64,000 nucleotides of DNA, taken from positions 1 to 64,000 of the forward strand of contig NZ_JAEKIW010000002.1 of NCBI RefSeq assembly GCF_016757965.1, read 5' to 3'. Source of the DNA: Archaeoglobus neptunius (GTDB lineage Archaea > Halobacteriota > Archaeoglobi > Archaeoglobales > Archaeoglobaceae). Under the pieces are notes generated by a model. The model saw nothing but the letters and a program-made list of their open reading frames with translations, had not been told where the DNA came from and did not search any database. Of the stretch, positions 31,531-48,553 are shown piece by piece; within the stretch, counting starts at the first letter, position 1, and each line of letters opens with the position of its first letter. A program made the translations under genes and the position numbers.

Positions 31531-31620
31531 GGTGTAAAAATTTACAAGGGTTGATAAATAATTTGCGTTTTGGCGTACTTCCTATTCTGACCTTCGGTCC
31601 ACTTTCTCCCCATCTCTTGC

Positions 31621-32218: not shown

Positions 32219-32235
32219 AAAATTCCTTGTCTCCC

Positions 32236-32619: not shown

Positions 32620-32815
32620 TTTCGTCTTAGAATTTCTCTGATTTTTCTTTCAATTTCTTTAGCCCATCTATCTCCCTTCTCTCTTCTCCAGTCGTAGAAT
32701 AGGTAGCCTATGCATCCGATGAAAGTGGTGGCTGAGATCATCAGGCCGATTTCAAACCAGTCCAGGTTTGTACCAGATTACGATTTCGAGATTGAATTTC
32801 GTTTATTCAAGCGGT
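32620..32815 (-). pseudogene. glycosyltransferase 3'-end copy L4
   Basis: About 170-195 bp resemble the last codons of the membrane glycosyltransferase: the CTCCAGTCGTAGAATAGGTA block (coding YLFYDWR), and the block reading LEIVIWYKP in place of LEIVIRYKP. The frame is broken within and the 5' side fades near 32,800. It lies between the DUF104-MazF and MntA-HepT modules. Confidence 0.8.
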
Positions 32816-32863
32816 TTATAACCCTGTTTTTCTTCATACATCTCTTCAATTCTATTCGATTAA

Positions 32864-33226
32864 CTAAAGATTAAATACTCTTCTAATTATATTTTTAACC
32901 TCAAAAAGTTTTTGCTGTTTTAGTCTCCCAACTTTTTTGATAATAAGATTTCTCTCAATAGTAAAAATGGAGTGGCAGTGAACATAACTTGTTTTCTTGA
33001 GTTTTCCTTCTTCTAAATCCCTAGGAGTCAACTCAACTTCAAAATCAGGCAGATGGTGGGATGAGCTTATTTTGGCAACTATAAAGTCAGATGATATGCG
33101 ATTTAAATTTTCTGAACTTAAAACGAGCACCGGTCTAAGCTTTTTGCCTATTAAATCTGTAAACGGCAGCTCAAGAATGACGATATCGCCTTCTTTATAG
33201 CTCAAAGAGCTCTTCTGCATCCTCAC
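32864..33226 (-). CDS. MazF/PemK-family toxin
   Basis: A 120-residue PemK-like endoribonuclease toxin. It has YKEGDIVILELPFTDLIGKK, the arginine-proline strand LRPVLVLSS and the serine/threonine strand KTSYVHCHSIFTIE. Length and fold match the family, so the toxin looks intact. It overlaps the DUF104 antitoxin by 32 bp, so the pair is translationally coupled. Confidence 0.88.
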   Translation of the reverse strand: MRMQKSSLSYKEGDIVILELPFTDLIGKKLRPVLVLSSENLNRISSDFIVAKISSSHHLPDFEVELTPRDLEEGKLKKTSYVHCHSIFTIERNLIIKKVGRLKQQKLFEVKNIIRRVFNL

Positions 33227-33383
33227 CCTCTCTCAGAAGCTTAAAATATCCATGCAGTTTCAGATCGTTCAATGTTTTTACCTCTTCTATACTCAAGATC
33301 ACCTTAGATCTCTCCGGAACGTCGAGTTTGATCAGCGGTATTAAAACCCCTTTCTCGTATATGCACTCAATCTTCTTGCTCAT
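33195..33383 (-). CDS. DUF104-type antitoxin
   Basis: A 62-residue protein opening KKIECIYEKGVLIPLIKLDV, the AF2212/DUF104-like antitoxin signature, with SKVILSIEEV after it. ATG 33383 is used; the frame is open further but lacks support. It is the upstream partner of MazF. DUF104 more often pairs with PIN toxins, so this pairing is slightly unusual. Confidence 0.85.
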   Translation of the reverse strand: MSKKIECIYEKGVLIPLIKLDVPERSKVILSIEEVKTLNDLKLHGYFKLLREGEDAEELFEL

Positions 33384-33419
33384 GACTATTACATAGCTTT
33401 TTTGTTTTATAAATCTTCT

Positions 33420-33672
33420 TGAGGTTCTTAACTTTCTTCTCAATTCTTTTAGCCCATCTGTCTTCTTTCTCTCTCCTCCAGTCGTAGAAGAGGTAGCCGA
33501 TGCAACCAGCGAAAGTTAATCCGGAAATCATCAACCCAATCTCAAACCAGTCCAGGTTTGTATCTTATGATGATTTCGAGGTTGCCGGTTTGGTTGATCC
33601 AGAAGCCGTTTATTACCGAACACAAGGGGATGGATCTAACCTTTTCTACTAACTTATCGTCCTTGTATGCCA
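33420..33672 (-). pseudogene. glycosyltransferase 3'-end copy L3
   Basis: About 250 bp match the final 80 codons of the glycosyltransferase, from the CTCCAGTCGTAGAAGAGGTA block to the region coding KVRSIPL. The GTTAATCCGGAAATCATCAA stretch is shared with the intact gene. A stop and indels break the frame. The 5' truncation is at about 33,672, 17 bp from the PIN toxin stop. Confidence 0.85.
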
Positions 33673-33688
33673 CAAGAACATCAAAAGG

Positions 33689-34196
33689 TTATTCCTCGAA
33701 CTTATTGAAAAGATATCTTTTGTTTCTGATTACTATTCTATCCTTTGTTTCAATTTCCTCAATAATATCTTTTAGTTCGATTCTATTTTTGATAATTCCC
33801 AAATCGACCATAGCAGAGAGAAGGTCTTCAATATTAAAGACATCGATACCGATTTCTTTGGCAACCTTCTCAACGACTTTATCGTTTGAAAGAATAATCC
33901 ATCCTCTGTTCTTTGCCAGAGCCATTGCTTCCATCTCTCCGAATCCCAGCCTTCTCTTCTTAGAAAGCTCCTTAACTATGCCAATTTCAATCTCATTTAG
34001 GGTGGCGATTTTAATTATCTCATTGTCTATTAGCTGAATAGCGTAATCTACAAAATCATATCCCTTTTCTTTTGCCCTTAAGACCTCTTCATAAACTCTT
34101 GGAGGTATAGAACTGAGCTTTAAAGAGTTTTTCGAGCAAATCGAACTTTCTGATCTTCGCAAAACAACTCAGTATGTCGGTATCGAGAACTATCAT
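33689..34196 (-). pseudogene. PIN-domain (VapC-like) toxin, frameshifted
   Basis: The true start ATG at 34196 overlaps the antitoxin stop by 4 bp and begins MIVLDTDILSCFAKIRKFDL, a PIN N-terminus. The frame then stops, and the rest continues in the +1 frame as LSSIPPRVYEEVLRAKEKGY to the C-terminus with GEMEAMALAKNRGWIILSND. One extra A near 34,110 explains this. Catalytic acidic residues remain on both pieces, so it was recently active. A sequencing error is possible. Confidence 0.8.
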
Positions 34197-34492
34197 AGCA
34201 TGCTTTTCAGCTTCTCTGTTCTCTTCCTCAACTCATCTTCATTTGAGCCAACTTCTCTCTTAATTTTCCTGCTAACGAATTCTCTGAATTCTACTACCTC
34301 CATACCGGCGATTTCCGCTGCTTTCTCAAGCGATACCTCTTCATCTTTGTACAATTCCAAGGCTACCTCTATTTTGAGTTGGGGATTTACCTCGAACAAA
34401 GCTCTTATAGCCTCTTTCAGCAACTCCTCTTCGGAATACTTCCTGAGCAATACGTTGATCTCCTTCTGGAAGGCGGATACTTTTAGACCCAT
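34193..34492 (-). CDS. UPF0175/VapB-type antitoxin
   Basis: A 99-residue protein with the UPF0175 helix pattern ALELYKDEEVSLEKAAEIAG, a helix-turn-helix, and a basic tail RKIKREVGSNEDELRKRTEK. It is the antitoxin partner of the downstream PIN toxin (ATGA overlap). It follows copy L2 by about 50 bp. Confidence 0.82.
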   Translation of the reverse strand: MGLKVSAFQKEINVLLRKYSEEELLKEAIRALFEVNPQLKIEVALELYKDEEVSLEKAAEIAGMEVVEFREFVSRKIKREVGSNEDELRKRTEKLKSML

Positions 34493-34539: not shown

Positions 34540-35290
34540 GTCTTAAAGTCCTGAGCAAGTCTTTAACCTCTGTTTCTATCTTTTTAGCCCATCCATCTCC
34601 TTTCCCCCTTCTCCAGTCGTAGAAGGAGTAAATGATGCATCCGATGAAGGTTGTAGCGGAAATCATCAAACCACTCGAACCAGTCCTGGGGTTTGTAGCG
34701 GATTACTATTTCAAGGTCGCCGGTTTCGTTGATCCAGAAGCCGTTAATAACAGAATACAATGGGATGGATTTAACTTTTTCTACCAGTTTATCCCTGTAT
34801 ATTCTCGCCTCCCACAATGGATCGTAGGCTTCTGCAAATGAGAGCATGAAGGGCTTTTTCGCCTGAACTTTGACCTTCCACAAAGTGGGGTTGACTTTTG
34901 TGTAGCTGATTACCTCAGCCGGTTTTTCTTTTACCTCGAATAGCTGGTTTATTGTCTGGTTTGTTTTGGTTGAGTATAACCAGATTACATCGAGCTTTGC
35001 GTCATCGCTTAGTGGGGTAATCTCGAGCCTGTACTTTCCTTCTGTCAGATTGAAGAGGGGTGTATAGGTGTAATTCGCGGATGTGTTGAGGTTGAAGGAG
35101 TAGAATGAGGTGTTGCCAACAACAGTAACCCCAAAACTGCCAACACCTTTTAAAGCGAGCCTGTAGGTTCCATTCTTGACGATTTCGATGTCCTGCCATG
35201 CCCTTCCATTTTCGAATACAAGCATTTCGCCGTTGCTGGCGTTGATGTCTTTAACAATTCCGGCATCACAGTAGAGAGATCTTGAGATTC
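34540..35290 (-). pseudogene. glycosyltransferase 3'-end copy L2 (longest)
   Basis: About 750 bp matching the C-terminal 230 residues of the intact gene: NGRAWQDIEIVKNGTYR, LFNLTEGKYRLEITPL, KLDVIWLYSTKTNQTINQLF, WKVKVQAKKPFMLSFAEAYD and VINGFWINETGDLEIVIRY are all open in one frame. Two points differ from the intact gene: it lacks the 160-residue carbohydrate-binding-like insert, and a 2-nt deletion near 34,672 shifts the tail after YKPQDWFE. It has no start codon or membrane part. Confidence 0.9.
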
Positions 35291-35408: not shown

Positions 35409-35687
35409 TCAATAAACCTTACCTCGAAAATGTATATTATAAACAAAAACCGTTTTTCTTGTCAGGTCAATTCTGAGTATAACTCTAAAATTACCAACCC
35501 TCAATCTAACAAAGCCCTCCCACTTACCCTTTAATTTCTGTATATCGAGACGCCTGATGGGGATTACGCCATCTTGAAGGCCATCCACCAACTCATTCAG
35601 CTTGTTAAACACAGTATTTCTTCTATTTTCGTCTAAATCTCTCAGAAATTTCTTAGCATTTTTATGGTACACTATTCTCCATTCCAT
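35409..35687 (-). CDS. relE: RelE-family toxin
   Basis: A 92-residue RelE-like mRNA interferase: [20 protein letters not shown], then [20 protein letters not shown] with the basic catalytic residues, ending HFRGKVY. The fold appears complete. It overlaps the RelB-like gene upstream by 16 bp. Confidence 0.9.
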
Positions 35688-35857
35688 GGTTCAAAATCTT
35701 TTTCATCGAAGTTTTCTGGACTTCCTGCCATACGGTCTATCTCTCTCTGCTCTTCGTCAGTAACATAGGGCATAATTTCCATAAACATCTTTAACAGCAC
35801 CTCTCTGAGCTTCTCCTCAATTATTTTCTCAAGTTCATCTCTTGAGATCTGAATCAT
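35672..35857 (-). CDS. relB: RelB-like antitoxin
   Basis: A 61-residue acidic protein ([20 protein letters not shown], then [18 protein letters not shown]) directly upstream of RelE. The N-terminal helix is for dimerisation and the acidic tail for toxin binding. Start ATG 35857 is supported by position; the frame extends further without need. Confidence 0.8.
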
Positions 35858-35994
35858 GATTAATATTTTCGACTTGGGAGTTATAAACATTTGTTCGTTT
35901 TCAGGAGAAATGGATTGGCAACAAAAATTGGTGAAGGAAGAAGAGGGGGTATAAGGTCGTGGAGTGATTAATTTTTACGGTTCTTGATTAGATT

Positions 35995-36174
35995 TTTAAT
36001 AGCCCTTTCAACCTACAGGCATCCTGTCTTCTCTCCTCGATGAATTCTTTTAGGATGTCTTTTTCAGCTTTCGCCCTATAATCCTTAAGCCTCTCTACTA
36101 AATTTTCTTTGATTTCTATCCTCATTCTCTTACCATGGCTTGAATACTCCATTTTCGTAGATGACCTCTATCAC
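35995..36174 (-). pseudogene. DUF104 antitoxin remnant
   Basis: The minus strand reads VIEVIYENGVFKPW then stop, and shortly after, MRIEIKENLVERLKDYRAK and ILKEFIEERRQ. The first part is nearly the same as the start of the antitoxin at 48,007-48,195 (VIEVIYENGVFKPLEKVDL). A deletion removed the middle. No toxin is left beside it. It is attached to copy L1, the same order as the DUF104 gene and joint F at 48 kb. Confidence 0.7.
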
Positions 36175-36650
36175 TGTTTTGAACCTTTAAAGCCCATCCA
36201 TCCCCTTTTTCCCTCCTCCAGTCGTAGAATAGGTAGGTAATGCAGCCGATGAAAGTGGTGGCTGAGATTAATAAGCCAATCTCAAACCAGTGAGGTTTGT
36301 ATCTTATAACGATTTCGAGGTTGCCGGTTTCGTTGATCCAGAATCCGTTAATAACCGAATACAATTGGATGGATTTTACCTTCTCAACCAGCTTACCATC
36401 CTTGTATATTCTCGCCTCCCACAATGGATCGTAGGCTTCTGCAAATGAGAGCATGAAGGGCTTTTTCGCCTGAACTTTGACCTTCCACAAAGTGGGGTTG
36501 ACTTTTGTGTAGCTGATTACCTCAGCCGGTTTTTCTTTGACTTCGAAAAGCTTTGGAATAGTCTCGTTCGAAAAGTAGGGCCGAACAACATCCAGTGTAG
36601 CATTATCATTCAGAGGTGTTTAAATCTGCATGTCTTTCCTTCGAGGTAGG
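36175..36650 (-). pseudogene. glycosyltransferase 3'-end copy L1
   Basis: About 475 bp match the intact gene's C-terminal 140 residues (WKVKVQAKKPFMLSFAEAYD, VINGFWINETGNLEIVIRY, FIGCITYLFYDWRRE). The final 79 bp (36,175-36,253) are identical to 48,249-48,327. A stop breaks the 5' side near 36,620. It lies between TumE and the DUF104 remnant. Confidence 0.9.
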
Positions 36651-36710: not shown

Positions 36711-37079
36711 TTACAAAATGCTCTCAATCTCTTTAAACACATCCAAAAGGCTCTTGCTTTTTGAGGGCAAAACTTTTTCACCAATATGAACATGATGTGG
36801 AAACGTAGCGACCTCTCTGTGGTGTGGTGCGTTATCGTATCTAAAAATGGGAGTTTCAGATTTCCTATAATGGAATCGGTACCTTATTCTCTCCAAACCT
36901 TTACTGGCATCCTTTATGAGTTCCAAAAATTCGAGTGTCGAACCGTCTTTAAAAAGAACTGCCCCATAAAGCAGAACCAGTGTGGAAGATTTAACATCAA
37001 CATTTAATTCGTAAGAAAGTATGACCGGACTAGTTTTCAGTGTATTTATTACTTGGTCTAAATAATCATCTATCTGCAC
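36711..37079 (-). CDS. tumE: TumE-family (DUF6516) toxin
   Basis: A 122-residue protein of the DUF6516/TumE toxin family. The signature FRYDNAPHHREVATFPHHVH near residues 78-97 is intact and is the likely nuclease site. It overlaps the upstream antitoxin by 10 bp. The family call rests on this motif and gene order. Confidence 0.78.
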   Translation of the reverse strand: MQIDDYLDQVINTLKTSPVILSYELNVDVKSSTLVLLYGAVLFKDGSTLEFLELIKDASKGLERIRYRFHYRKSETPIFRYDNAPHHREVATFPHHVHIGEKVLPSKSKSLLDVFKEIESIL

Positions 37080-37345
37080 AGTTTCAACATCCTGATGATG
37101 GCATCTCTATCCTTTTTCAGCAATTCTAAAGCCTCAAATTCGGATGCCCAGAGCATAAATTCCTGTGAGTCCCCAATTTCACCTTTTTCAAACTTTTTGT
37201 GAAATTCTTCACTGCTGATACCATGTTTCTTCTCAAAATCCTTGAGTTTCTCCGTTGTCTTTTGGATACTGTACTCTATAAGTTTCAGCTCCCTTTCCAG
37301 CGAATTTCTCAGAATCTGAAATTCTCTCTCGGTTTTTGCTATCAT
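37070..37345 (-). CDS. tumA: TumA-like antitoxin
   Basis: A 91-residue mostly helical protein (TEREFQILRNSLERELKLIE, then KLKDFEKKHGISSEEFHKKF), just upstream of and overlapping tumE. A coiled-coil pattern is visible. ATG 37345 was chosen; an upstream in-frame start at 37387 is possible. It begins 96 bp after the end of the intact glycosyltransferase gene. Confidence 0.7.
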   Translation of the reverse strand: MIAKTEREFQILRNSLERELKLIEYSIQKTTEKLKDFEKKHGISSEEFHKKFEKGEIGDSQEFMLWASEFEALELLKKDRDAIIRMLKLCR

Positions 37346-37440
37346 CCAATAGTATCTTATCAGAAATATTGAAATACTTTTCGACATAGTGTAAAATGAA
37401 TTTATATTCTAAAATCAAAAACTCTGCCATGATTAACTCA

Positions 37441-40400
37441 TCAACCCTTTTGCAAAATCTCTTTTACCTTATTTTCAATCCTCTTAACCCACCTGTCTTC
37501 TTTTTCCCTCCTCCAGTCGTAGAAGAGGTAGCCAACACACCCGGCGAAAGTTAATCCGGAAATCATCAAACCAATCTCAAACCAGTCCTGGGGTTTGTAG
37601 CGGATTACTATTTCAAGGTCGCCGGTTTCGTTGATCCAGAAGCCGTTTATGACCGAATACAATGGGATGGATTTAACAGTTTCAACCTTCCTGCCGTCTT
37701 TGTATATTCTCGCCTCCCACAATGGATCGTAGGCTTCTGCAAATGAGAGCATGAAGGGTTTTGTTGCGTTAACTTTGACCTTCCACAAAGTGGGGTTGAC
37801 TTTTGTGTAGCTAATCACCTCAGCCGGTTTTTCTTTTACCTCGAATAGCTGGTTTATTGTCTGGTTTGTTTTGGTTGAGTATAGCCAGATTACATCGAGC
37901 TTTGGAGCCTCATAGAGGGGGATAACGCTTATGTCGTCGAACCAGGTTATCGCTTCTCCTTTATTTTCATCGAGAACCCAGCCGGCGTTCAATACAACCC
38001 TTATCTCTGTTGCATTTTCGGGGATCTTTATTATTGCCGAATACTCCTGCCAGCCAGAGGTTCCGGATTTTCCACCCGGTATGAACGGGGTTAGCTGTCT
38101 CCATCTGTTCTCTTCAGGATAGTACGCCTCAAGCCTCACATGTGATGCCTTGACATTCCGGTATTTCATGTGGGTTGTAATCAGATAATCTCTGCCCGGC
38201 TCAACATCCATAGGCTCGCTCCTTATCCAGCTCCATCTTTTCTCGGTTGTCGAGGTTGAAACCTTCAAGCTGTAGTTTCCGTCATAACCTCTGTCAAAGC
38301 TTATTTTGAAGTCTTTAGTGTTGCCGATATTCCAGCTCTCTGGCAGCCCGGCAAATATTTTTTCAAATGAAGGATTCTTAACAAGATTTTTGACGTTTAA
38401 TGGAATTATCTCAAGCCTGTATTTACCTTCTGTTAAGTGGAAGAGAGGAGTGTATGTGAAGTTTAATGAGTTAGATTTAAGTATGAACGATTTATCTCCT
38501 ATCTTTACTTTGAATTCTCCTATTTCTCTTAAAACAATCCTGTAAGTTCCGTTTTTGACGATTTCTACATCCTGCCAAGCTTTTCCCTTCTCAGCAAATG
38601 CAATAGCCTCCCCATTACTGAACTCAACATCATTTACAGTATAAGTACTATGCTTATATAGATCCCTTTCAGCCTCAACGAAGTGAATTAGAGTTGTGCC
38701 ATGGAAAAAGTTTATTAGTAAAGACATTGGTTTTATTTCGCTATAGTTCACGACTTCTACAGGTTCGCTATAATTTTTATTTTCATATACGTATATAAAG
38801 TTTGAAAATGTTTTAACTAATTTCAAATTAGACCTATTTAATTTTTCCAGATCTTCCTTTGCTTGACGTTGAGCCCCAACAATATCATTATGATATATCA
38901 AATATCGTACATTAACTAGTTGTAGATATTTATCCACACGCGTTAATTTATCTGGATAGAACATTTTATAGAAAGTGGGCCAACGGCTCATATAATGATA
39001 GAATCCTATCGAGGGCTTGCTCGATGATCTGGGAAATACATTTCCAGCTAATCTTTCAGGATTCCAAGTAAAAGATGTTTCATATTTAAGTTTATTTTTA
39101 TTCATCCCTGCAAAATAAGGTGCTAAGTATATCACTTTGAAGTCTCCTGATTGGTGCGATAACCAATCATTCAGATCATAATATTCAGAAGGTATTTTAA
39201 CTGGGGCGTAGTAAAATCCAAAAAACTCCACTACCATGTTTCCAACAAGTAGAGAGAAGGATAGAACTATATATACTATTACAATGATAATATTCTTTTT
39301 ATATTTATTTCTTATTTCCATAAGAAGTATTGAACATAAAGAAGCATATACTAACCATACTAGATAGCTTATTTTACTTGGAACTCTAAAAACCCACCCA
39401 AATTGGTATGATATTGGGGATTTTAGACTAAGCCAAACGTATGCAGGATTATTACCTCCCAATGCAAGGAATATCGTTATTATGTAAATAATGCCTAAAA
39501 AACATACATATTTATTTCTCTTAACTATTATTAAAGTAGATAAAAATAATATAGGCAAAAAGAGGCTATTCAATATCCATAATGAATTCTCAAAAAGGGG
39601 TGGATGATACCACAAAAGTGCTCTATCAAAGGTTCGTATTATGTTCAATATCGTACTATTTCTACTGAAAAAGTTGAGTACTTTTTGTGAGAACTCATAA
39701 TTAACACCTACAAAGTTGGGTCCTAATGGCGTTGAGATTAAAAGAGATTGTAAATAAACATAAATCCAGTAAAAATTTAATAGTACAAAGATAAAACACA
39801 GCAAGCTAAACACTTTAAGGTGTTGTTTAATATTTTTTCTGTCCACTATAGATTCAAATATCACATATGCCAAAATTAAACCTCCGGTAAATACAATATA
39901 TTGTGGAGCGGATACCAACGACCATAAGTATGCCGTCAAAAAAATATGTCTAATTTTTCTATATTTTATTGATTTTACGAGTGACCATAAAATTAATGGA
40001 GTCAAGCTATAAGCAACCCAATAAAAAAAAGCTTGGATCTCAAATAATACCCATGGAGTATACATATATATTAACGAAGATATTAGAGGTATATATTTAG
40101 GGATTTCATGCTCGGGGTAACTTTCTTTAAGTAGAAAATTAGAAAAAATATACATTGAAATACCAGAAAGAATTAAAGGTAGAAGCATTTGTAATTTTGA
40201 AAATGTCTCTATAGATATATTAAATAAAATACCTAAAATTAGTATTGGATACATGAAAAGAGCTTTACTAACATTCTCTAAGTTTGATACAGATCCATAT
40301 GGATTCCATAATGGATAAAAGTGGGATATATATCTACTAAAAGCAAGGGGATATGCTTTATCACCATGCAATGGTAAACCGTCATTAATGATGATTTTTG

Positions 40401-40488
40401 AACATGTTATTATCGATATTAAAATTATTACGAAATATGGCAAATAATCTGTAATTAGCCTTCGACCAAATGGCTTGTGTTTGCTCAT
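37441..40488 (-). CDS. GT-C membrane glycosyltransferase with C-terminal carbohydrate-binding-like domain
   Basis: A 1015-residue membrane protein with about thirteen hydrophobic segments in the first 450 residues (YFVIILISIITCSKIIIN, LSLLVGNMVVEFFGF) and a large extracellular part ending in one helix and the tail YLFYDWRREKEDRW. An early DKAYPLAFSRYISHFYPLWN loop recalls GT-C enzymes. Residues about 690-850 form a beta-sandwich insert (NPSFEKIFAGLPESWNIG) like carbohydrate-binding modules. It probably transfers sugars to a lipid carrier or S-layer glycan. The 3' 1.2 kb has normal composition and is copied six times; the 5' 1.9 kb is AT-rich. Confidence 0.8.
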   Translation of the reverse strand: MSKHKPFGRRLITDYLPYFVIILISIITCSKIIINDGLPLHGDKAYPLAFSRYISHFYPLWNPYGSVSNLENVSKALFMYPILILGILFNISIETFSKLQMLLPLILSGISMYIFSNFLLKESYPEHEIPKYIPLISSLIYMYTPWVLFEIQAFFYWVAYSLTPLILWSLVKSIKYRKIRHIFLTAYLWSLVSAPQYIVFTGGLILAYVIFESIVDRKNIKQHLKVFSLLCFIFVLLNFYWIYVYLQSLLISTPLGPNFVGVNYEFSQKVLNFFSRNSTILNIIRTFDRALLWYHPPLFENSLWILNSLFLPILFLSTLIIVKRNKYVCFLGIIYIITIFLALGGNNPAYVWLSLKSPISYQFGWVFRVPSKISYLVWLVYASLCSILLMEIRNKYKKNIIIVIVYIVLSFSLLVGNMVVEFFGFYYAPVKIPSEYYDLNDWLSHQSGDFKVIYLAPYFAGMNKNKLKYETSFTWNPERLAGNVFPRSSSKPSIGFYHYMSRWPTFYKMFYPDKLTRVDKYLQLVNVRYLIYHNDIVGAQRQAKEDLEKLNRSNLKLVKTFSNFIYVYENKNYSEPVEVVNYSEIKPMSLLINFFHGTTLIHFVEAERDLYKHSTYTVNDVEFSNGEAIAFAEKGKAWQDVEIVKNGTYRIVLREIGEFKVKIGDKSFILKSNSLNFTYTPLFHLTEGKYRLEIIPLNVKNLVKNPSFEKIFAGLPESWNIGNTKDFKISFDRGYDGNYSLKVSTSTTEKRWSWIRSEPMDVEPGRDYLITTHMKYRNVKASHVRLEAYYPEENRWRQLTPFIPGGKSGTSGWQEYSAIIKIPENATEIRVVLNAGWVLDENKGEAITWFDDISVIPLYEAPKLDVIWLYSTKTNQTINQLFEVKEKPAEVISYTKVNPTLWKVKVNATKPFMLSFAEAYDPLWEARIYKDGRKVETVKSIPLYSVINGFWINETGDLEIVIRYKPQDWFEIGLMISGLTFAGCVGYLFYDWRREKEDRWVKRIENKVKEILQKG

Positions 40489-40489
40489 T

Positions 40490-41914
40490 CTACCACCGGA
40501 TAAGGCTATCTTTTTCCATAAACTTCGGAATTGGTATGCCCATTAAATGTAATATTGTGGGAGCTATCGTTTTAATCTGGGCTGTACCATTTAATCTCAA
40601 GTTATATTCCTTATGATATATCGCAAAAAATGCATTTTGCATAGCTGCTACAGACACATGATCACCAGCTTTGCTTCCAACAAATCCCCTTCTTATAATT
40701 TTTCCAGAAATGGCGGAAGAAATAGTGTAACCTTCTTTTACTAGTAAAATAATATCCGGGGCATGGTTTAGGTAATTGCCGGTATATACTTCTTCTCTCT
40801 TAAAAGCTTCAACTATTTTATTCCTCATGTCGTCCTTTAAAGAATTGAACTCACTCACTATTTGATCTCTAATATGATTATACTCATCTCCATTAATTAT
40901 TGGATTGATTTTTATATGATATGCTAAAGAAAATTTTGCTATCTCATGATTTCTAAAAACAAGATTCTCTGATAAATTGCGAGACGTTATTTTAAATAAT
41001 CGCTCAAGTAAATATTTGGGGAATGTCCTAATAACACATTCAGGAAAATTTTCTAAGAGATAAAATTTAGTTCCATTAATAATTTTACTTAAGCTAGATG
41101 TTCTTATATATCCATTCCTAGCTAGAAGCTCATTTGGAAAAAGATACTTATCAATCCTTTCAAATCCATGATCAGATACCACTATCAGATGCGTATTTTT
41201 ATCTAAGGCTTTTAGAATTTCACCTATAAAATTATCTACTTCTTTTAAAAATCTAACTACTATTTCCTCACAATCAATATAAATATGCAATAGTCGATCT
41301 GTAGTATCAAATAAATTAAACACAAAATCTGGTTTATAGGTGTTTATGATATATTCCATAAATCTTGCTCTCTTTTTAAAAATTCCAAGAAGATAATTTA
41401 GTGCTTTTTCTGGTTTACCTTTAAGTCGATATATTATTTGATCACTAAAATTACTTGCTAATGGATAATCTATTATTTTAAGTTTCTCAATAAGTTCTAT
41501 AGGTCTAACGCATCTTTCATCAATATCTGGAGCTAAAAATCCACCAACATAAATACCATCTCTGGATGTAGGGAACCCAAGAGGGAATCGTATAATAGCT
41601 ACTTTCTTTCCATAGTCACTTAAAATTCTCCAAACAGGGTCTACCTTCAAGTCTCGTAAAGTATTAATCTTTATACTTCCGGAAGGTAAAAGTTTAGTGA
41701 AATGGAAAATACCATGCTTTCCCGGATTTACACCAGTAAATGCATTTATCCAACTAGGAACAGTTAAAGGAGGAATTGAACTGATCATTCTACAACTAGC
41801 TCCATCTTCTAAAATTCTTTCAAGATTTGGAAGATCCCCTGTCTTTATAAATTTGTTTAACAGTCTCCAATCAACACCATCCAGTCCTATTACAATCATC
41901 TTAGGTTTGTCCAT
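40490..41914 (-). CDS. alkaline-phosphatase-superfamily phosphodiesterase/transferase
   Basis: A 474-residue type I phosphodiesterase or nucleotide pyrophosphatase-like enzyme. Metal ligands are in VIGLDGVDW, SWINAFTGVNPGKHGI (catalytic Thr region), VVSDHGFERID and GDHVSVA. Such proteins cut or transfer phosphodiester groups; in a glycan locus it may add or remove a phospho-substituent. ATG 41914 has GGGGGAT upstream. It ends 2 bp before the GT-C gene start, so they are co-transcribed. Confidence 0.8.
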   Translation of the reverse strand: MDKPKMIVIGLDGVDWRLLNKFIKTGDLPNLERILEDGASCRMISSIPPLTVPSWINAFTGVNPGKHGIFHFTKLLPSGSIKINTLRDLKVDPVWRILSDYGKKVAIIRFPLGFPTSRDGIYVGGFLAPDIDERCVRPIELIEKLKIIDYPLASNFSDQIIYRLKGKPEKALNYLLGIFKKRARFMEYIINTYKPDFVFNLFDTTDRLLHIYIDCEEIVVRFLKEVDNFIGEILKALDKNTHLIVVSDHGFERIDKYLFPNELLARNGYIRTSSLSKIINGTKFYLLENFPECVIRTFPKYLLERLFKITSRNLSENLVFRNHEIAKFSLAYHIKINPIINGDEYNHIRDQIVSEFNSLKDDMRNKIVEAFKREEVYTGNYLNHAPDIILLVKEGYTISSAISGKIIRRGFVGSKAGDHVSVAAMQNAFFAIYHKEYNLRLNGTAQIKTIAPTILHLMGIPIPKFMEKDSLIRW

Positions 41915-41918
41915 ATTA

Positions 41919-42650
41919 TTAATCCCCCGCTTCATCCTTTATGACAATTAGATAATGCATAGGTTTTAAGAAATATTTTAATCCTCTTTTTAGTGCTAAT
42001 ACTCTTGTTCTGATTCCTATGTCTATAAGATTCTCAATCCGCACATTATAACCTTTATCCATATATTCTCTAAGTATATTTCTCCACCACTCTTTTTTTG
42101 ATATTCGCCTCTCACCTAAAACCCCTTCACTTGGATAATATTCTGATGGCACATTAATAATAACAACATGTGCAACGCTTAATTGTTCATTAATTAGCTT
42201 TTGAATCTCTTCATTTGAAAAATGCTCAAGTAGTCCTTGTGAAATTGCAATGTCAAACTCCTTTTCTTTGAAAATATCACTCAAATGAAATGCGTCACCA
42301 AAAATAAACTTTATATTCTTTCTTTTATATCTTTGGGAATTTTTTTTTGCTACATCAAGAACTTTTTCGTTGCTATCTAAACAATAAAATTCTGTTTTTC
42401 GTAAAAAGACGCTTAAAAATATCGAATGCGAAGCTGTACCACAGCCTACTTCAAGTACTTTTTTGGGTCTAAGTTTCATTACTTCTAATAAGTAATGCAA
42501 ATGTAAAATATTATCTGCCAAGAAGTTGAAGGAGGAGGGGGGTTTAGAGTAAACATCCTCCCATCCATAAATTAGCTTACTGAGCTTTTTTTTCAGTGAT
42601 TTTCTACAGGCATTTTCATCACTTTTTTCAAAATACTCACTACCGAACAT
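41919..42650 (-). CDS. class I SAM methyltransferase
   Basis: A 243-residue SAM methyltransferase. The SAM site is VLEVGCGTASHSIFLSV, with the acidic FYCLDSNEKVLDVAK and motif ISQGLLEHFSNEEI. It likely methylates a sugar or lipid of the local glycan. ATG 42650 has GAGGTG seven bases upstream and overlaps the GT4 gene by 11 bp. AT-rich like its neighbours. Confidence 0.85.
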   Translation of the reverse strand: MFGSEYFEKSDENACRKSLKKKLSKLIYGWEDVYSKPPSSFNFLADNILHLHYLLEVMKLRPKKVLEVGCGTASHSIFLSVFLRKTEFYCLDSNEKVLDVAKKNSQRYKRKNIKFIFGDAFHLSDIFKEKEFDIAISQGLLEHFSNEEIQKLINEQLSVAHVVIINVPSEYYPSEGVLGERRISKKEWWRNILREYMDKGYNVRIENLIDIGIRTRVLALKRGLKYFLKPMHYLIVIKDEAGD

Positions 42651-43920
42651 TCTTAAGCACCTCAATAAATGCCTGCGTAGAATTCTCGATAGAATACTTA
42701 AGTTTGTGTTTATCTATAGCTATACATGGTGGCTTTATTTCACTTTCTAATAACTTTTCTAAGATTTCTAAGAAGTTACGACTATTATAAGCGACAAAAC
42801 CAAATCGACTTTGTTTTACAATTTCAGCTGCCCCAACTACGTTGAAAACTAGAACAGGTGTTCCACATGCTATAGATTCGGCTATTACATATCCAAATTG
42901 TTCCCATTTTTGAGGACATATCGCCAATTTACATTCAGAATATATTTTAGCTAGCTCTTTATCAGAAACTCCAGAAATATGGTGTATTTCATATCTCTTC
43001 GAAAGTTTTTTTGCAAGCATTTTATTTCCTATTGCTAAAATTTTAAAATTCTTATCTTCCAAAACTTTACAAATTTCCTTTACAAAATTTTCATCAGTAT
43101 CACCAGCGTGGGAGCCAAGATAAAGCAAAACTTGATCTTTTTTCTTTACATTCTGAGGTTTAAAAATTTCGGTATTCACAGGTGGATACACTATTCCATG
43201 TGGCTCAACTCCATAGAGTGTATGCAAAAGTGTTGCTGTTATTTGGCTATTAGCAATTAATATATCTTGCTTTTGAAGTAACTTTTTATAAGATGCTTTT
43301 AGCAAGTTAAACGGAACGACTCTTACAATCTTGAATAATATTCGTTCTTTTGTTGGCAGATACTTTAAGTCAAACACATCAACGATAGAGTGGACTCCAA
43401 ATAGTATCTGAACATAAACTCCAGTCTTTATTTGAATTTTGCTTTTAATTTTTTTAAGAAGTCTTAACCTCCGGAAATTATCATCTGTTAAAATAATATT
43501 TGGTTTTACTATATTTATATAATCCACAATCTCTTTGAATTTCTTCGAGTTCTTGTATTTAATTCCATCTATACTTTCAATAAATTCTGTCAATTTTTTT
43601 TCACAATTTAGTAGAAGGAAATGCACTTCCCAGCCGTTTTTAGAAAATTCTTTAGCCCAATTAATAAATGGTCTTACAACTCCCTCATACGGATGTCTTT
43701 CTCGGTCCAAAAGGAGTGCAATCTTTGATGGTCTCCCTCTCGCAGACTCTACCTCAGTCCCTGCATAAAACCCCCTCTCAAAATCCCTAACCCTAACCCA
43801 GAACCCCTCACCAACCGATCTCTCCGGAATTACGACTCCTCCCACTTTCTCATCCTCCATAACCTCAACACACTCCCCCACCACATCTGGCATCAGCTCC
43901 ATGTCCGAATCCACGAACAT
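42640..43920 (-). CDS. GT4 glycosyltransferase fused to the middle of a GT2 gene
   Basis: A 426-residue open frame of two origins. The first 62 residues (MFVDSDMELMPDVVGECVEV to ESARG) are the middle of a GT2 enzyme with its DxD region, GC-rich. From RPSKIALLLDRERHPYEGVV on it is a GT-B family 4 glycosyltransferase with the signature WEQFGYVIAESIACGTPVLV, AT-rich. The GT2 N-terminus lies upstream in another frame (43,930-44,155). The native GT4 start was probably near 43,735. A single-base shift separates the two pieces. Confidence 0.8.
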   Translation of the reverse strand: MFVDSDMELMPDVVGECVEVMEDEKVGGVVIPERSVGEGFWVRVRDFERGFYAGTEVESARGRPSKIALLLDRERHPYEGVVRPFINWAKEFSKNGWEVHFLLLNCEKKLTEFIESIDGIKYKNSKKFKEIVDYINIVKPNIILTDDNFRRLRLLKKIKSKIQIKTGVYVQILFGVHSIVDVFDLKYLPTKERILFKIVRVVPFNLLKASYKKLLQKQDILIANSQITATLLHTLYGVEPHGIVYPPVNTEIFKPQNVKKKDQVLLYLGSHAGDTDENFVKEICKVLEDKNFKILAIGNKMLAKKLSKRYEIHHISGVSDKELAKIYSECKLAICPQKWEQFGYVIAESIACGTPVLVFNVVGAAEIVKQSRFGFVAYNSRNFLEILEKLLESEIKPPCIAIDKHKLKYSIENSTQAFIEVLKNVR

Positions 43921-43929
43921 GACATACCT

Positions 43930-44155
43930 CCCCTCTCGCCCTTCTCAACCCGAAGTTCTTGGCTTTTGCTCTTTCGCAGTCCAGCTTATAAACCCTGGCT
44001 TTATATTCCTTTGCGATTTCAGCCGTTTTATCCTCGGAAAATCTGTCCACTACTATTATTTCAATATTTCTATAACTCTGATTTTCTATCGATTCCAGAC
44101 AAATATCAACAGTATTTTCAGAGTTGTAGGTCGGAATGACAACTGAAACCTTCAT
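43930..44155 (-). pseudogene. GT2 5'-end copy A, frameshifted into the GT4 fusion
   Basis: The first 75 codons of a GT2 gene: SVVIPTYNSENTVDICLESI, NQSYRNIEIIVVDRFSEDKT, then KLDCERAKAKNFGLRRARG. One extra C in the run at 43930-43933 shifts the frame; without it the protein would run on into YVMFVDSDMEL and the GT4 part as one 505-residue chimera. The ATG overlaps the HEPN stop by 4 bp (ATGA). Confidence 0.85.
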
Positions 44156-44529
44156 AAACTGTCCAAGTAACTCTTTAACCTTTCAAAAAATTTGTGAGCA
44201 TCTCTTAAGGTTCTCTCGGCTTCATCTCTCGTAATCTGAAATCCTACACCGTAATCACCGATTATCCTTTTATCGTGAGCTTCGCTAAGCATCTTACCGA
44301 ATTCCCTCTCGATGATTCCGGTCTTTATAAAGTGTTCTCCGAACATGGCTATCACACCCTTGTGAGTTGAAGCTGTTAAACCTTTGGTGAGAAGAACAGC
44401 TTCAGCCATGAAAAACATTGCGTAATAACATCGGGACACGCACGAATCGCAGTCCCCTAATTCTAAGGCGTATTCAGCCGTATTAAGAAACTTCTCAGCC
44501 TTCTTTACGAGATCGTCAATTTCTCTCAA
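44152..44529 (-). CDS. HEPN-domain toxin
   Basis: A 125-residue HEPN protein: CVSRCYYAMFFMAEAVLLTK and a conserved KGVIAMFGEHFIKTG. It partners the nucleotidyltransferase gene upstream, overlapping by 4 bp. The HEPN helices are complete. Its stop overlaps the GT2 copy A start. Confidence 0.87.
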   Translation of the reverse strand: MREIDDLVKKAEKFLNTAEYALELGDCDSCVSRCYYAMFFMAEAVLLTKGLTASTHKGVIAMFGEHFIKTGIIEREFGKMLSEAHDKRIIGDYGVGFQITRDEAERTLRDAHKFFERLKSYLDSL

Positions 44530-44870
44530 ATCTTTATACCCTCCCTTTTAACGTTTATGATAAAAGGAGACTTATAATTTTCAAAGAAATCTTCTCCAAC
44601 TACCACAACGGAAACGAGTTCACCATCGTTCAGCAGTATATCAAGTATCATCTCGCTTAGACTTTTCCTGACTTCCATGGGATCCATTGAATTATCAACA
44701 ACTACAAGCACATCGATGTCCGAATCTTCTCGGGCTTCACCCCTCGCATGAGAACCGTAGAATATCACATCCTTTATACAACTCTCACCATATCTATTTA
44801 TTAAATATTTTTTTATTTCATAAACAATATTCCTTATTTTTTTATTGGTGTTCATTCTCATAGCCTCCAA
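44526..44870 (-). CDS. MNT-type nucleotidyltransferase antitoxin
   Basis: A 114-residue minimal nucleotidyltransferase with FYGSHARGEAREDSDIDVLV (GS...DxD) intact. It is the upstream partner of the HEPN gene. It follows GT2 copy B by about 35 bp. Confidence 0.9.
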   Translation of the reverse strand: MEAMRMNTNKKIRNIVYEIKKYLINRYGESCIKDVIFYGSHARGEAREDSDIDVLVVVDNSMDPMEVRKSLSEMILDILLNDGELVSVVVVGEDFFENYKSPFIINVKREGIKI

Positions 44871-44905: not shown

Positions 44906-45127
44906 TTAAGCATTTTCACACTTTTGGTCTTTAGCCCTTTCGCAGTCCAGCTTATAAACCTTAGCTCCATATCTTTCTGCGATTTCAGCAGTCATATCGC
45001 TGGAAAATCTATCAACAACAATTACCTCAATTTCCTCATAGCTCTGCCTAACTACGGATTTCAAACACAGCTCAAGAGTTCTTCCGGAATTACAGGTAGG
45101 AATTACGACAGATACCAGCTGATTCAT
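44906..45127 (-). pseudogene. GT2 5'-end copy B
   Basis: A 73-codon open piece: SVVIPTCNSGRTLELCLKSV, VIVVDRFSSDMTAEIAERYG, KLDCERAKDQ, then stop. It matches copy A, including the 24-bp block at 44,937-44,960 shared with 43,971-43,994. The start codon is retained; the catalytic part of the enzyme is missing. Confidence 0.88.
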
Positions 45128-45184: not shown

Positions 45185-45520
45185 CTATTCCATCGCTTCT
45201 TTCGCTTCATCTTCCGTTATTTCTCGACCTATAGGATATCTGATCGTAACACCGAGTGGAAATAAAATGGAAAAATCGAGCTTAAGCAGATCCTCGAATC
45301 TTTGATCGATCTCCGCGCATAAACTTAAGAGTAAAGGAATGTTATGAGTTTTTCCAAACGGTTTGTTGTGATAAGTCAGGAATGCTTTGAGGTATTTTTC
45401 AACCGCTTGTTGGGAGTGAAATAATGAGTAATCGTAGATTCCTTCTCTAATTAATATGCTTGCAACTTTTAGATCAGTCTCAGCCTTTTTCAACCACTCC
45501 CTTGCTTTTTCGACAATCAT
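45185..45520 (-). CDS. HEPN-domain toxin, 3' frameshift
   Basis: A 111-residue HEPN protein: LKKAETDLKVASILIREGIY, YSLFHSQQAVEKYLKAFLTY. One lost base near 45,188 ends it early; in the other frame the expected tail IAEKVREFILRKTG follows and stops at about 45,145. The loss removes only the last helix, so function is uncertain. Confidence 0.82.
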   Translation of the reverse strand: MIVEKAREWLKKAETDLKVASILIREGIYDYSLFHSQQAVEKYLKAFLTYHNKPFGKTHNIPLLLSLCAEIDQRFEDLLKLDFSILFPLGVTIRYPIGREITEDEAKEAME

Positions 45521-45834
45521 ATAACCACACCCTCTGATGTTGCCACACCGCAGATGTCGCCGAAAACATCCTTATGTTTAATGTAGTAACTCTTACTGAC
45601 CACGATTGGTTCCGCATCTATTTTAAAGTCCAGTAACTTCAAAACACATTCGTACAGGAACATCCTCTCAGTATTTCTATCAATCTCAGCCTCGGTGACA
45701 ATCAAAATGTCCCAATCCGAATCCTCTCGGTAATCTCCTCTGGCTCTCGAACCGAACAGGATTATCCTGTCTACCTTTATTCCGAACTTTTCAGCCACTT
45801 CCAGAATTGTTTCTCTTATCTTCTCCTTCATCAA
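45517..45834 (-). CDS. MNT-type nucleotidyltransferase antitoxin
   Basis: A 105-residue nucleotidyltransferase with ILFGSRARGDYREDSDWDIL intact. It overlaps the HEPN gene by 4 bp, the usual HEPN-MNT pair. It follows GT2 copy C. Confidence 0.9.
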   Translation of the reverse strand: MMKEKIRETILEVAEKFGIKVDRIILFGSRARGDYREDSDWDILIVTEAEIDRNTERMFLYECVLKLLDFKIDAEPIVVSKSYYIKHKDVFGDICGVATSEGVVI

Positions 45835-45859
45835 ATTATAGTCCCCTCAAAACGTATTT

Positions 45860-46078
45860 ACCTTTTCGCCCTTCTCAAGCCCATTCTTGGCTCTCTCACA
45901 ATCGGAGCTGACATGCCTTGGCTCCAAAACCCTCAGCGATTTCAACAGTTCAATCTTCAGAAAACCTGTCAACGATTATAACCTCGATGTCATCGTAGCT
46001 CTGATTTGCTATCGACTTCAGACAGATATTAATCATCCCTTCGGAATTGTAAGTTGGAATGACAACTGAAACCACCAT
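45860..46078 (-). pseudogene. GT2 5'-end copy C
   Basis: The minus strand reads VVSVVIPTYNSEGMINICLK, SIANQSYDDIEVIIVDRFSE, then a stop, VEIAEGFGAKACQLR in the next piece, and fragments of ESQEWA and GRKGKY. It begins 20 bp after the HicA stop and is more degraded than A and B. Confidence 0.85.
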
Positions 46079-46098: not shown

Positions 46099-46320
46099 CT
46101 ACATTTTATGCTTCTTTTTAAACTCATTGTATCTTCTTACAAACTCCTCCAAACTCATCTGAAGATCCTCTTTGATGATCTTTCTAAGGAGACCTCTTGG
46201 AATTTCTCTGTTTCCGTGTACCGGAACAGTAGTAACCCTCCCATCCTCCGACTTTAGCCCTACATGAGAACCTTTCATCCTTACGGGTTTAAATCCAAGT
46301 TCTTCAAGAAATTTAAGCAA
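46099..46320 (-). CDS. hicA: HicA-like toxin, likely start lost
   Basis: A 73-residue HicA-type double-stranded-RNA-binding-fold toxin: ELGFKPVRMKGSHVGL with the catalytic histidine and TVPVHGNREIPRGLLRKIIK. The frame continues upstream as KLPLIKARDLLKFL without a start codon. An ATG one base out of frame (46,347-46,350 area) suggests a single A insertion cut it off. TTG 46320 may still start it. Confidence 0.78.
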   Translation of the reverse strand: MLKFLEELGFKPVRMKGSHVGLKSEDGRVTTVPVHGNREIPRGLLRKIIKEDLQMSLEEFVRRYNEFKKKHKM

Positions 46321-46334
46321 ATCTCTCGCCTTTA

Positions 46335-46583
46335 TTAGTGGTAGTTTTCATATTCTACCTCGACCTCTCTGTAACCCACGAACTTCTGGCTATCATCTAT
46401 ATCCTCTTCCTCCAAACACAGCTCTACTACTTCTTTTATATTCTCCAAAGCCTCTTCTATCGTTTTTCCATAAGTGTGGCAACCTCTTAGGAGGGGACAG
46501 CTGACTATATAGTATCCGTCCTCATCAATTTCAACAATCACAGGGAATCTGAGCTTTCTAACCGTTACATTCATGTATTTCAC
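46335..46583 (-). CDS. hicB: HicB-like antitoxin
   Basis: An 82-residue HicB partial RNase-H-fold antitoxin: FPVIVEIDEDGYYIVSCPLL, RGCHTYGKTIEEALENIKEV. It lies upstream of hicA. The last few codons (EYENYH) may result from the same one-base insertion. It follows copy D. Confidence 0.87.
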   Translation of the reverse strand: MKYMNVTVRKLRFPVIVEIDEDGYYIVSCPLLRGCHTYGKTIEEALENIKEVVELCLEEEDIDDSQKFVGYREVEVEYENYH

Positions 46584-46719: not shown

Positions 46720-46824
46720 AATGTATCCAAATTGGCCTTTGCCCTCTCACATTCCGCTGATAAACCTTGGCTTTGTACTCTTCTGCAAGTTTTACAGTTC
46801 CATCTTCAGAAAACCTGAAATGCA
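46720..46824 (-). pseudogene. GT2 5'-end copy D (internal piece)
   Basis: Only RFSEDGTVKLAEEYKAKVYQ remains, matching RFSEDKTAEIAKEYKARVYK of copy A. The true start is lost; it begins directly at the PIN toxin stop. The block TAAACCTTGGCTTTGTACTC resembles copies A and B. Confidence 0.78.
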
Positions 46825-46827
46825 TCT

Positions 46828-47331
46828 TCAATCCTCATATCCCAGAAGTCTTAGGAATTCCGAGTAAACTTCAACGCTAAGCCTGAATCCATTTCTGATC
46901 ATCATGTCAACCTTGTCTATTGCATTTCTCCTGTCGAGTTTACCTTTTTTCATCATCAGAAATATCAGATAGAGGGTTCCGTGAACATTTACATCTAAGA
47001 TTTCACCGATCTCCCTTGCTATACTGTCATCAATTACCGCAATTCCACCCTTTTTCCTTGCCAGAGACAGAGCTTCGATCTCACCCGTATGTATCTCTTT
47101 AACTCCCTTCAGCCAGTCGATGGGTTCAGCTTCGATTATCCTGAAAGCCCCCTTTTTCACGAGCTTTTCAACTATAAACGCATCGACCTCTCCCCTCTCT
47201 TTCCCTTTAACAACGACTTCAGAATACACTGTCTTCGGAATAACTTTTTCTCCTTCGAGTTCCTCAAAAATCCAGCTCAAACTTACCTTACTGAGATAGA
47301 TAAGCGGTGTGGAGTTGAAAACCCATATCAC
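46828..47331 (-). CDS. DUF3368 PIN-domain toxin
   Basis: A 167-residue PIN-type toxin: VFNSTPLIYLSKVSLSWIFE with the first acidic/asparagine site, IPKTVYSEVVVKGKERGEVD, HTGEIEALSLARKKGGIAVI and DDSIAREI. The acidic residues for metal binding are present; it appears complete. It overlaps its antitoxin by 4 bp. Confidence 0.88.
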   Translation of the reverse strand: MIWVFNSTPLIYLSKVSLSWIFEELEGEKVIPKTVYSEVVVKGKERGEVDAFIVEKLVKKGAFRIIEAEPIDWLKGVKEIHTGEIEALSLARKKGGIAVIDDSIAREIGEILDVNVHGTLYLIFLMMKKGKLDRRNAIDKVDMMIRNGFRLSVEVYSEFLRLLGYED

Positions 47332-47627
47332 TTCATTGCCTCCTCAAAATCCCTCCTCAAATCATTGATGGTTATGTTGAGCGATAATCCCCTCTCCCTA
47401 ATCAGCTCAAGCATATCCCTTATGGATATTTCCGCAATTTCAGCAGCCTTTGCAAGCGAAACCTTCCTTTCTGAGTAAAGGTTCACCGCAATCTTTTTGA
47501 GTTCTTCATCGACCCCTCTCTCCAAAGCCCTCCTGACTACGGACGATTTGTCAGCTTTTTCAAACTCCATGAGCTTCCTGATCTTTTTTTCCAGATCCGG
47601 TTTTGGTCTAACTGAAATTACACCCAT
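47328..47627 (-). CDS. UPF0175-type antitoxin
   Basis: A 99-residue antitoxin with a ribbon-helix-helix-like N-terminus (FEKADKSSVVRRALERGVDE) and the UPF0175 helix NLYSERKVSLAKAAEIAEIS. It resembles the antitoxin at 34,193-34,492 (VSLEKAAEIAGMEV). It pairs with the PIN toxin downstream. It follows copy E. Confidence 0.87.
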   Translation of the reverse strand: MGVISVRPKPDLEKKIRKLMEFEKADKSSVVRRALERGVDEELKKIAVNLYSERKVSLAKAAEIAEISIRDMLELIRERGLSLNITINDLRRDFEEAMK

Positions 47628-47867: not shown

Positions 47868-48019
47868 ACTTCCAAGAAGTCAACCCTCTTGAAATCCTCA
47901 TCAAAAGTGGCTATCTTCTTTATTCCGTAATGCTTGCAGGTTGCAGCAATTAAAGCATCGTTCGGCAGAAGCTTGTATTTTTCTATTATGTAAGAACGCG
48001 TTAGAATCAAAGAATACCT
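47868..48019 (-). pseudogene. VapC-type PIN toxin with internal deletion
   Basis: The frame begins by GTG overlapping the antitoxin (VEVFFDSNAFLH) and resumes after a shift as KLLPNDALIAATCKHYGIKK, IATFDEDFKRVDFLEVIES. Start and end of a VapC are present but the middle is gone, so the toxin is dead while the antitoxin is intact. Confidence 0.75.
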
Positions 48020-48195
48020 CCACTCTCTATCTCCTCCAATATCGAGTCTATATCACAGCCTTTTATCACACCTCTAGTCTTTTCGCTGACTTTTTCCCTT
48101 ATCTCTATTCTTAACTTCTCCCCTTCATTTAAATCAACCTTTTCAAGTGGCTTGAATACTCCGTTTTCGTAAATAACCTCTATAACCTTTGGCAT
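48007..48195 (-). CDS. DUF104-type antitoxin
   Basis: A 62-residue DUF104 antitoxin: KVIEVIYENGVFKPLEKVDL, NEGEKLRIEIREKVSEKTRG, ending DIDSILEEIESGGIL. It overlaps the VapC remnant. The start is nearly the same as the remnant at 36.1 kb. Confidence 0.87.
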   Translation of the reverse strand: MPKVIEVIYENGVFKPLEKVDLNEGEKLRIEIREKVSEKTRGVIKGCDIDSILEEIESGGIL

Positions 48196-48241: not shown

Positions 48242-48553
48242 TTAATTCTGTTTTGAACCTTTAAAGCCCATCCATCCCCTTTTTCCCTCCTCCAGTCGTA
48301 GAATAGGTAGGTAATGCAGCCGATGAAGGTTGTTGCAGAAATCATCAAACCACTCGAACCAGTCCTGTGGTGTATATCTGATTACGATTTCAACCGTATT
48401 ATCTTTTGAGAAGCTGTCCACTACCATTATTTCAATATTTCTATAACTTTGATTTTTTATCGATTTTGGGCATAGATCGATAGTTTTTTCTGAATTGTAG
48501 GTTGGAATGATAACAGAAACCAAAGAATCTCCAGAATTCTTGCCCAATGACAA
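48242..48553 (-). pseudogene. joint F: GT2 5' end joined to glycosyltransferase 3' end
   Basis: A 103-codon open frame in two parts. The first 55 residues are a GT2 start (SLVSVIIPTYNSEKTIDLCP, NQSYRNIEIMVVDSFSKDNT). At about 48,395 it changes to the C-terminus of the membrane glycosyltransferase (IVIRYTPQDWFEWFDDF). The glycosyltransferase part has the same 2-nt deletion as copy L2 and 79 bp identical to copy L1. Nothing of the genes that lie between them at the main locus remains. Confidence 0.88.

Follow-up and report, generated by a model that had tools for sequence, protein, structure and literature searches.

The window analysed here covers positions 1 to 64,000 of a 190-kb contig from the heat-loving archaeon Archaeoglobus neptunius, whose draft genome (2.116 Mb in 32 contigs) is 99.99% complete with 0.13% contamination. 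It contains an AT-rich gene core that is enclosed by the ends of two glycosyltransferase genes, a GT-C-like gene on the left and a truncated GT2 gene on the right, and, further outward, by decayed copies (scars) of these ends and by toxin-antitoxin (TA) modules. An overview of the locus is given in Table 1. A glycan role is predicted for the cluster because GT2, GT4, GT-C-like, CBM and methyltransferase families are present. Within the core, the best relative of the phosphodiesterase among 295 Halobacteriota genomes is 34% identical.

Table 1 Features of the glycan locus from left to right (positions in the window; all features on the minus strand; GC3, G+C content at third codon positions)
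Feature	Position	Evidence
C-terminal remnant of PIN-type toxin gene	31618..31760	intact in G041 (Pfam DUF3368 there)
GT-C 3'-end scar, outermost left	31760..31840	76% DNA identity, 92 bp
HepT-like / MNT nucleotidyltransferase TA pair	31874..32541	PF01934, PF01909
GT-C 3'-end scar	32622..32823	72% DNA identity
PemK/MazF-like toxin + AF2212-like antitoxin	32864..33443	PF02452, PF01954
GT-C 3'-end scar	33421..33676	83% DNA identity
UPF0175 antitoxin-type gene + downstream presumed PIN-type toxin	33689..34492	PF03683 (34,193-34,492); no Pfam match 33,689-34,162
GT-C 3'-end scar L2, without CBM	34550..35282	85% + 66% DNA identity, two pieces
ParE-like toxin + small upstream partner	35409..35890	PF05016 8e-6
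GT-C 3'-end scar	36152..36616	81.5% DNA identity; tblastn 73%
TumE toxin + upstream partner	36711..37387	PF20126 1.8e-21
GT-C shared 3' end, CBM_4_9 + conserved C-terminal tail (aa 712-1015)	37441..38352	Pfam CBM_4_9 1.7e-9
GT-C 5' body, AT-rich, apparently imported (aa 1-712)	38353..40488	GC3 0.25, codon z -6.9, change-point 38,352, tree conflict
Type I phosphodiesterase / nucleotide pyrophosphatase-like protein	40490..41935	PF01663 2.7e-40; GC3 0.22
S-adenosylmethionine (SAM) methyltransferase	41919..42665	PF13847 6e-15; GC3 0.26
GT4 glycosyltransferase, without own start codon, fused in frame to GT2 fragment	42640..43725	PF00534 2.9e-19; GC3 0.24
Innermost GT2 5' end, right border of the core	43735..44155	82% DNA identity to G041 fragment
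HEPN / MNT pair	44152..44870	PF05168, PF01909
GT2 5'-end scar	44922..45116	72% DNA identity to innermost fragment
HEPN / MNT pair, common to G041	45185..45834	PF05168, PF01909
GT2 5'-end scar	45852..46078	69% DNA identity
HicA / HicB pair	46099..46583	PF07927, PF15919
GT2 5'-end scar	46732..46817	74% DNA identity, 87 bp
DUF3368 PIN-type / UPF0175 pair	46828..47627	PF11848, PF03683
AF2212-like (VapB-type) antitoxin directly after collapsed tail, then presumed PIN remnant	48007..48195	PF01954 5.6e-22
Collapsed cluster: GT2 5' end (48,521-48,373) fused to GT-C 3' tail (48,393-48,251)	48251..48521	81%, 77% DNA identity to innermost copies
Outermost right pair, HepT-like + MNT-like (MNT by eye)	48592..49396	PF01934 4e-32 (48,947-49,396)
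Conserved flank: GT4 (49,497-50,594), 287-aa protein, GT2 (51,463-52,176)	49497..52176	Pfam

A 400-kb sample of the genome served as the background for composition, and 198 genes as that for codon use. The background G+C content is 46.3%, and none of the background windows of 5.3 kb falls below 41.5%. The maximum-likelihood segment of the window, a core of 5.3 kb at 38,350-43,669, has 31.0% and is nested in a wider island (31.5-52.9 kb) of 37%. Its change-points lie at 38,352 on the left (95% interval 38,348-38,360) and at 43,669 on the right (95% 43,608-43,703; 99.8% up to 43,741). The GC3 of the core enzymes is 0.22-0.26 and that of the GT-C body 0.25, compared to 0.52-0.56 in the CBM and tail of the same gene. 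None of the 198 background genes has a codon-use score as low as those of the core enzymes and the GT-C body (aa 1-598; z -4.6 to -6.9), whereas GT-C residues 712-1015 score within the background (z -1.6). The core interior is therefore supported as foreign to this genome. A first-pass annotation of the window had proposed an imported-looking, AT-rich interior at 38.65-43.74 kb between fixed ends of local composition. The foreign interior is borne out by G+C, GC3 and codon use, and the G+C content is not uniform across the GT-C gene but steps at 38,352. Both borders of the sharp core are shifted relative to that proposal. The arms lie within the 37% island, so that their composition is not fully local either.

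It is very improbable that the core is native and owes its low G+C to function (membrane proteins, low expression), with the step in the GT-C gene reflecting a transition from membrane to soluble protein. In a low-confidence model, helical membrane segments dominate the GT-C body and beta structure the tail, as such an explanation would have it. However, GC3 and synonymous codon use, which are little tied to residue choice, shift too, and the soluble enzymes (phosphodiesterase, methyltransferase and GT4) shift just as much. In addition, most control GT-C genes (n = 9) have no body-to-tail GC3 step, and in the window the step coincides with the CBM domain instead of the membrane boundary.

The body of the GT-C protein consists of a multi-helix membrane part and the beginning of an extracytoplasmic part. 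It is followed by the CBM_4_9 domain (aa 700-836), at the start of which the composition breaks. The comparison was made with G041, a single-contig genome (1,860,815 bp) of the same family but another genus. Its GT-C homologue can be aligned from residue 599 of the window protein onward, with a DNA identity of 56-63% for aa 599-673, then 71-89%, and 93-99% for aa 750-849. A one-break model places the change in identity, from 0.62 to 0.95, at 38,355 (95% 38,351-38,357). The composition and identity breaks agree within 5 nt, the two measures being not wholly independent since a composition shift itself lowers identity. Homology to the scar L2 stops near 38,667 (35,282 in L2), and the last ~300 bp of the homologous stretch are divergent and have 35% G+C in the live gene compared to 46% in L2. 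The AT-rich part thus already held the homologous residues 599-711, so that the crossover would have fallen inside homology. The left border had been expected at about 38,650, close to where homology to L2 ends; it does lie within the GT-C gene, but ~300 bp away and inside the L2 homology. Taken together, it is well supported that the live GT-C gene is a chimera, as judged from its sequence, with an AT-rich body of foreign codon use joined at ~38,353 to a 3' end of other composition and ancestry. The genes upstream of it share the foreign composition as far as the GT2/GT4 join at ~43,730.

An assembly artefact that fused the DNA of two organisms is extremely improbable as the source of this junction. 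The genome is a draft of 32 contigs with repeats nearby, but an unbroken open reading frame (ORF) of 1015 codons crosses the break within a 190-kb contig, the contamination is low (see above), and the independent single-contig genome G041 has the same layout.

The GT-C protein has no Pfam GT-C match, and no match was obtained in an NCBIfam search. The AlphaFold model of the whole protein is of low confidence (pLDDT 54) and was used for the CBM and helical content only; its N-terminus is helical, and the same low-confidence model matches AftD (6wbx) with E 6e-6 and TMq 0.25. A distant relative, G041b, matches GT-C_AftD. No close relative of the body was found by pattern search in 84,980 species, and no donor was found, the best distant matches being 23-24% identical. 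The CBM_4_9 domain (37,930-38,388) is present in the live GT-C genes of the window and G041 and absent from scar L2 and from the copies in G064, G284 and G251. It is a recent domain gain common to two genera.

The separate ancestry of body and tail was analysed with tail-bearing GT-C genes gathered from all collections, for which bodies and tails were treed separately and compared by approximately unbiased (AU) tests. The body data reject the tail clades window + G041 + L121 + L122 (p 4e-79), window + G041 (p 0.027) and L129 + L131 (p 6e-5). Conversely, the tail data reject the body clades L120 + L131 (p 4e-5) and L121 + L127 (p 0.003). The congruent trees that would have spoken against a composite gene were not found; the conflict is significant both ways. 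Tail identity is uncorrelated with body similarity (rho 0.11, 136 pairs). Tail GC3 is clearly above body GC3 in 15 of the 20 tail-bearing GT-C genes, and the exceptions are mainly divergent tails. Members of this set are also found on contigs assigned to other archaeal phyla and to some bacteria, many of them with a GC3 step.

At the right border, the innermost GT2 fragment corresponds to the first ~139 of 280 residues. A whole 280-aa homologue is found in locus L120, and full-length homologues in G028, G054 and G062 are 49-59% identical. The join to GT4 lies at ~43,725-43,735, and the GT4 homologue in locus L123 has an ATG start at the equivalent residue. The composition border, which the first-pass annotation had set at the exact GT2/GT4 junction, is close to it (within about 60 bp) but not identical, with the change at 43,669. 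In G041, the GT2 fragment ends about 12 residues earlier and is followed by another gene. At 43,920-43,935, the GT2 fragment of the window has a run of four G compared to three in G041, which causes a frameshift near 43,928; the second part reads in frame into GT4. The extra G could be real or a homopolymer error. A layer-free gene order is seen in L120, namely GT2, GT4, the GT2 gene next to the core (GT2n), a variable AT-rich core and a GT-C gene with the conserved C-terminal domain. The core of this Thermococcus-assigned locus is small and AT-rich, and a 339-aa protein at 2,258-3,277 is HPr-kinase-like by eye.

In G041, the same ends surround an unrelated AT-rich core (0.28-0.31 G+C compared to 0.46). 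The GC break in the G041 GT-C gene is found at aa ~807, just ahead of the homologous domain that starts at aa 822; this different place points to an independent event. Parts of the ends are more similar between the two genera than ordinary orthologues. The CBM/tail stretch reaches the 93-99% given above, a HEPN/MNT pair with a scar on either side (44,974-45,951) matches G041 with 93.2% identity, and the PIN remnant at 31,618-31,760 is 95.1% identical to G041 435,602-435,744. In contrast, other long orthologous matches between the two genomes are 63-75% identical, so that the ends have moved recently between genera. The assumption that the ends are simply resident is thus not supported. Of the earlier proposal that the GT-C gene is a foreign 5' body on a resident 3' end, the foreign body and the separate inheritance of the 3' end stand, while the resident state of that end does not fully hold.

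An alternative that is possible, though considerably less probable than a local replacement, is that the chimeric GT-C gene and the core were built in another Archaeoglobales lineage and that the whole island was acquired later with its ends as one piece. The high identity of the scar/TA and CBM/tail stretches to G041 compared to ordinary orthologues is in line with this, and a close homologue of the flank GT4 is found in only 2 of 55 family genomes. The flank GT4 and GT2, however, are at normal orthologue divergence from G041 (75.6% and 66.9% DNA identity), so the flanks did not arrive recently with the ends, and the core is wholly unlike that of G041.

Beyond this family, contigs assigned to Thermococcus and Hydrothermarchaeum carry tails of about 80-81% identity, and less similar tails are spread over many phyla; a GC step at the tail recurs in these loci. 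Regarding a carrier of the tail, no virus was found in IMG/VR, and for plasmids one weak match to a Halobellus plasmid only. With one genome per species compared, no match was found in seven congeners. No integrase was seen among the ORFs of the island or near the tRNA-Arg (TCT) gene at 30,103-30,178, which is separated from the left edge of the low-G+C island by ~1.3 kb that contain ManC. AT-rich glycan cores (0.26-0.31 G+C) are also found in loci L086, L087 and L088 (genomes G062, G106 and G215; another family of the same phylum). Here, rml-like genes lie on one side of the core and a conserved flippase-like gene on the other; a GT2 gene comes first and a GT-C-like gene last (names by eye).

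The decayed copies outside the core derive from precisely the two outer gene ends and lie mostly each on its own side. Five decayed GT-C 3' ends are found to the left, beyond the live one; the right side holds three decayed GT2 5' ends together with a fused GT2/GT-C scar at 48.25-48.52 kb. The latter seems to be a whole earlier cluster reduced to its two ends. No further tail copies are present elsewhere in the genome, and no further tail or GT2-end copies elsewhere in the window. Almost every pair of scars is separated by a TA module. The modules belong to the HEPN/MNT, HepT/MNT, TumE, ParE, UPF0175/PIN-type, PemK with AF2212, and HicAB families, recognised as adjacent small genes with predicted activity. 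The alternation of tails and TA modules is also found in G041, UBA234, JdFR-32, B4_G15 and B5_G16, partly with the same TA modules, and such GT-C tail/TA arrays are recurrent across Archaeoglobales. Nothing matching TA/gene-end arrays in archaeal glycan loci was found in the open-access literature.

In many cases, an AF2212-type antitoxin starts ~31-37 bp after the tail (e.g. 48,195; 33,443). The first ~18 residues of these antitoxins are common (MPKVIEVIYENGVFKPL), while the proteins differ beyond them, as do the toxins. Recombination may use the antitoxin start as a second arm. The recurrent combination of tail and antitoxin start would also provide a natural repeat unit for an origin of the scar arrays within the locus, in which a tail-plus-antitoxin unit underwent tandem duplication and unequal crossing-over in place and then decayed, with no capture from outside. 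Some tail copies do pair within one genome (G251, G099, G041). This origin is nevertheless rather unlikely. The TA modules between scars come from many unrelated families (HEPN/MNT, TumE, ParE, MazF, HicAB, PIN), and near-identical modules occur between tails of different genomes, which duplication alone cannot supply.

The locus is read here as a replaceable surface-glycan island that would recombine inside the conserved GT-C 3' end, with an rhs-like pile-up of displaced ends (probability about 0.75). An incoming cluster would cross over with the locus within the homologous GT-C 3' end, presumably because few other stretches are long and similar enough, and would replace the body and the genes beyond. 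The join at GT2n may be non-homologous, or may once have been homologous to GT2n sequence since lost. For the scar arrays, we infer that TA cassettes with a fragment of the GT-C tail or the GT2n end attached would enter by single crossover in the repeats. With each entry, the end that was there before would move outward, much like the displaced tips of rhs, and deletion between the repeats would be disfavoured by TA addiction. A new glycan would be expected at the surface, with viruses as a plausible selective force. A wider version is offered tentatively, in which the GT-C 3' end, with the antitoxin start often found behind it, would act as a cross-phylum docking arm by which archaea capture glycan clusters and TA cassettes without integrase or transposase, the TA modules guarding the repeats from deletion.

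Several points weigh against the island as a site of repeated replacement. No homology is seen on both sides of the right join (window compared to G041), which leaves this side without a demonstrated homologous crossover. As the ends are shared between genera, it may be that the chimera was put together in another species and arrived as a whole. Several of the other-phylum loci are contigs of metagenome-assembled genomes that could be misbinned. The body alignments have 20-30% identity and long branches, which weakens the AU tests and makes single placements unsure, and window + G041 is rejected at p 0.027 only; the conflict between the body and tail trees as a whole is not in doubt. Finally, the DNA tree of the tail copies is too weakly resolved to date or order the scars, and a circular intermediate is hypothetical.

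Switching of glycan islands is known in archaea, and how non-homologous clusters find a shared place for recombination is poorly understood. Here, the position of the putative crossover within one gene is known to a few bases, and the same end of this gene is found in contigs from many phyla. Scars of apparent earlier rounds lie beside the live copy and make the history of coat switching partly readable. The model suggests repeated swapping of sugar coats between distant microbes and offers a testable reason for the clustering of TA modules at such loci.

Several known systems share features with the locus. Capsule (cps) and O-antigen loci likewise have a low-G+C glycosyltransferase centre between conserved outer genes and switch by recombination. 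To our knowledge, neither scar arrays nor an alternation with TA modules is known from them, and the exchange described here spans genera and possibly phyla. The cassette arrays of superintegrons also contain unrelated TA modules split by a repeated element. In contrast to these, the repeat of the window is a decaying gene end and not a dedicated recombination site (no search for attC sites was made), and no integrase was seen among the island ORFs.

The locus also resembles the replacement flexible genomic islands described by Lopez-Perez et al. (2014, PMC4033161), such as the Haloquadratum cell-wall island GI1 (PMC4535781). These are surface or glycosylation clusters at a conserved position that are swapped by homologous recombination without an integrase, known in bacteria and archaea. 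Similarly, the window and G041 share place, flanks, ends and general function while the cores differ. Of the two borders, the left fits exchange by homology (0.62 to 0.95 at 38,355 within a homologous domain), whereas the right is without homologous crossover. In replacement islands, close strains exchange DNA through flanks of high similarity; in the window, the crossover would fall in the 3' third of a cluster gene and the exchange would occur between genera or beyond, with displaced ends and TA modules accumulating. In Clade I of Haloquadratum GI1, gene duplications were not seen (PMC4535781).

The arrays themselves resemble the C-terminal displacement arrays of rhs and the mafB loci, for which homologous recombination was proposed (Jackson et al. 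2009, PMC2935791); a circular intermediate with single-crossover integration is hypothetical there as well. In both cases, a constant part of higher G+C is fused to a swappable low-G+C part, the two parts evolve independently, and strings of truncated constant-part fragments of varied length lie beside the live gene. The arrangement mirrors that of rhs: here, the 3' end is constant and the 5' body variable. Further differences are that the gene is a glycosyltransferase and not a toxin, that ends accumulate on both sides of a multi-gene core, and that the modules between fragments are intracellular type II TA pairs rather than effector/immunity pairs. No Rhs domain was found in the GT-C/CBM protein with Pfam and NCBIfam. 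By analogy, the locus thus appears to work like rhs but is not rhs.

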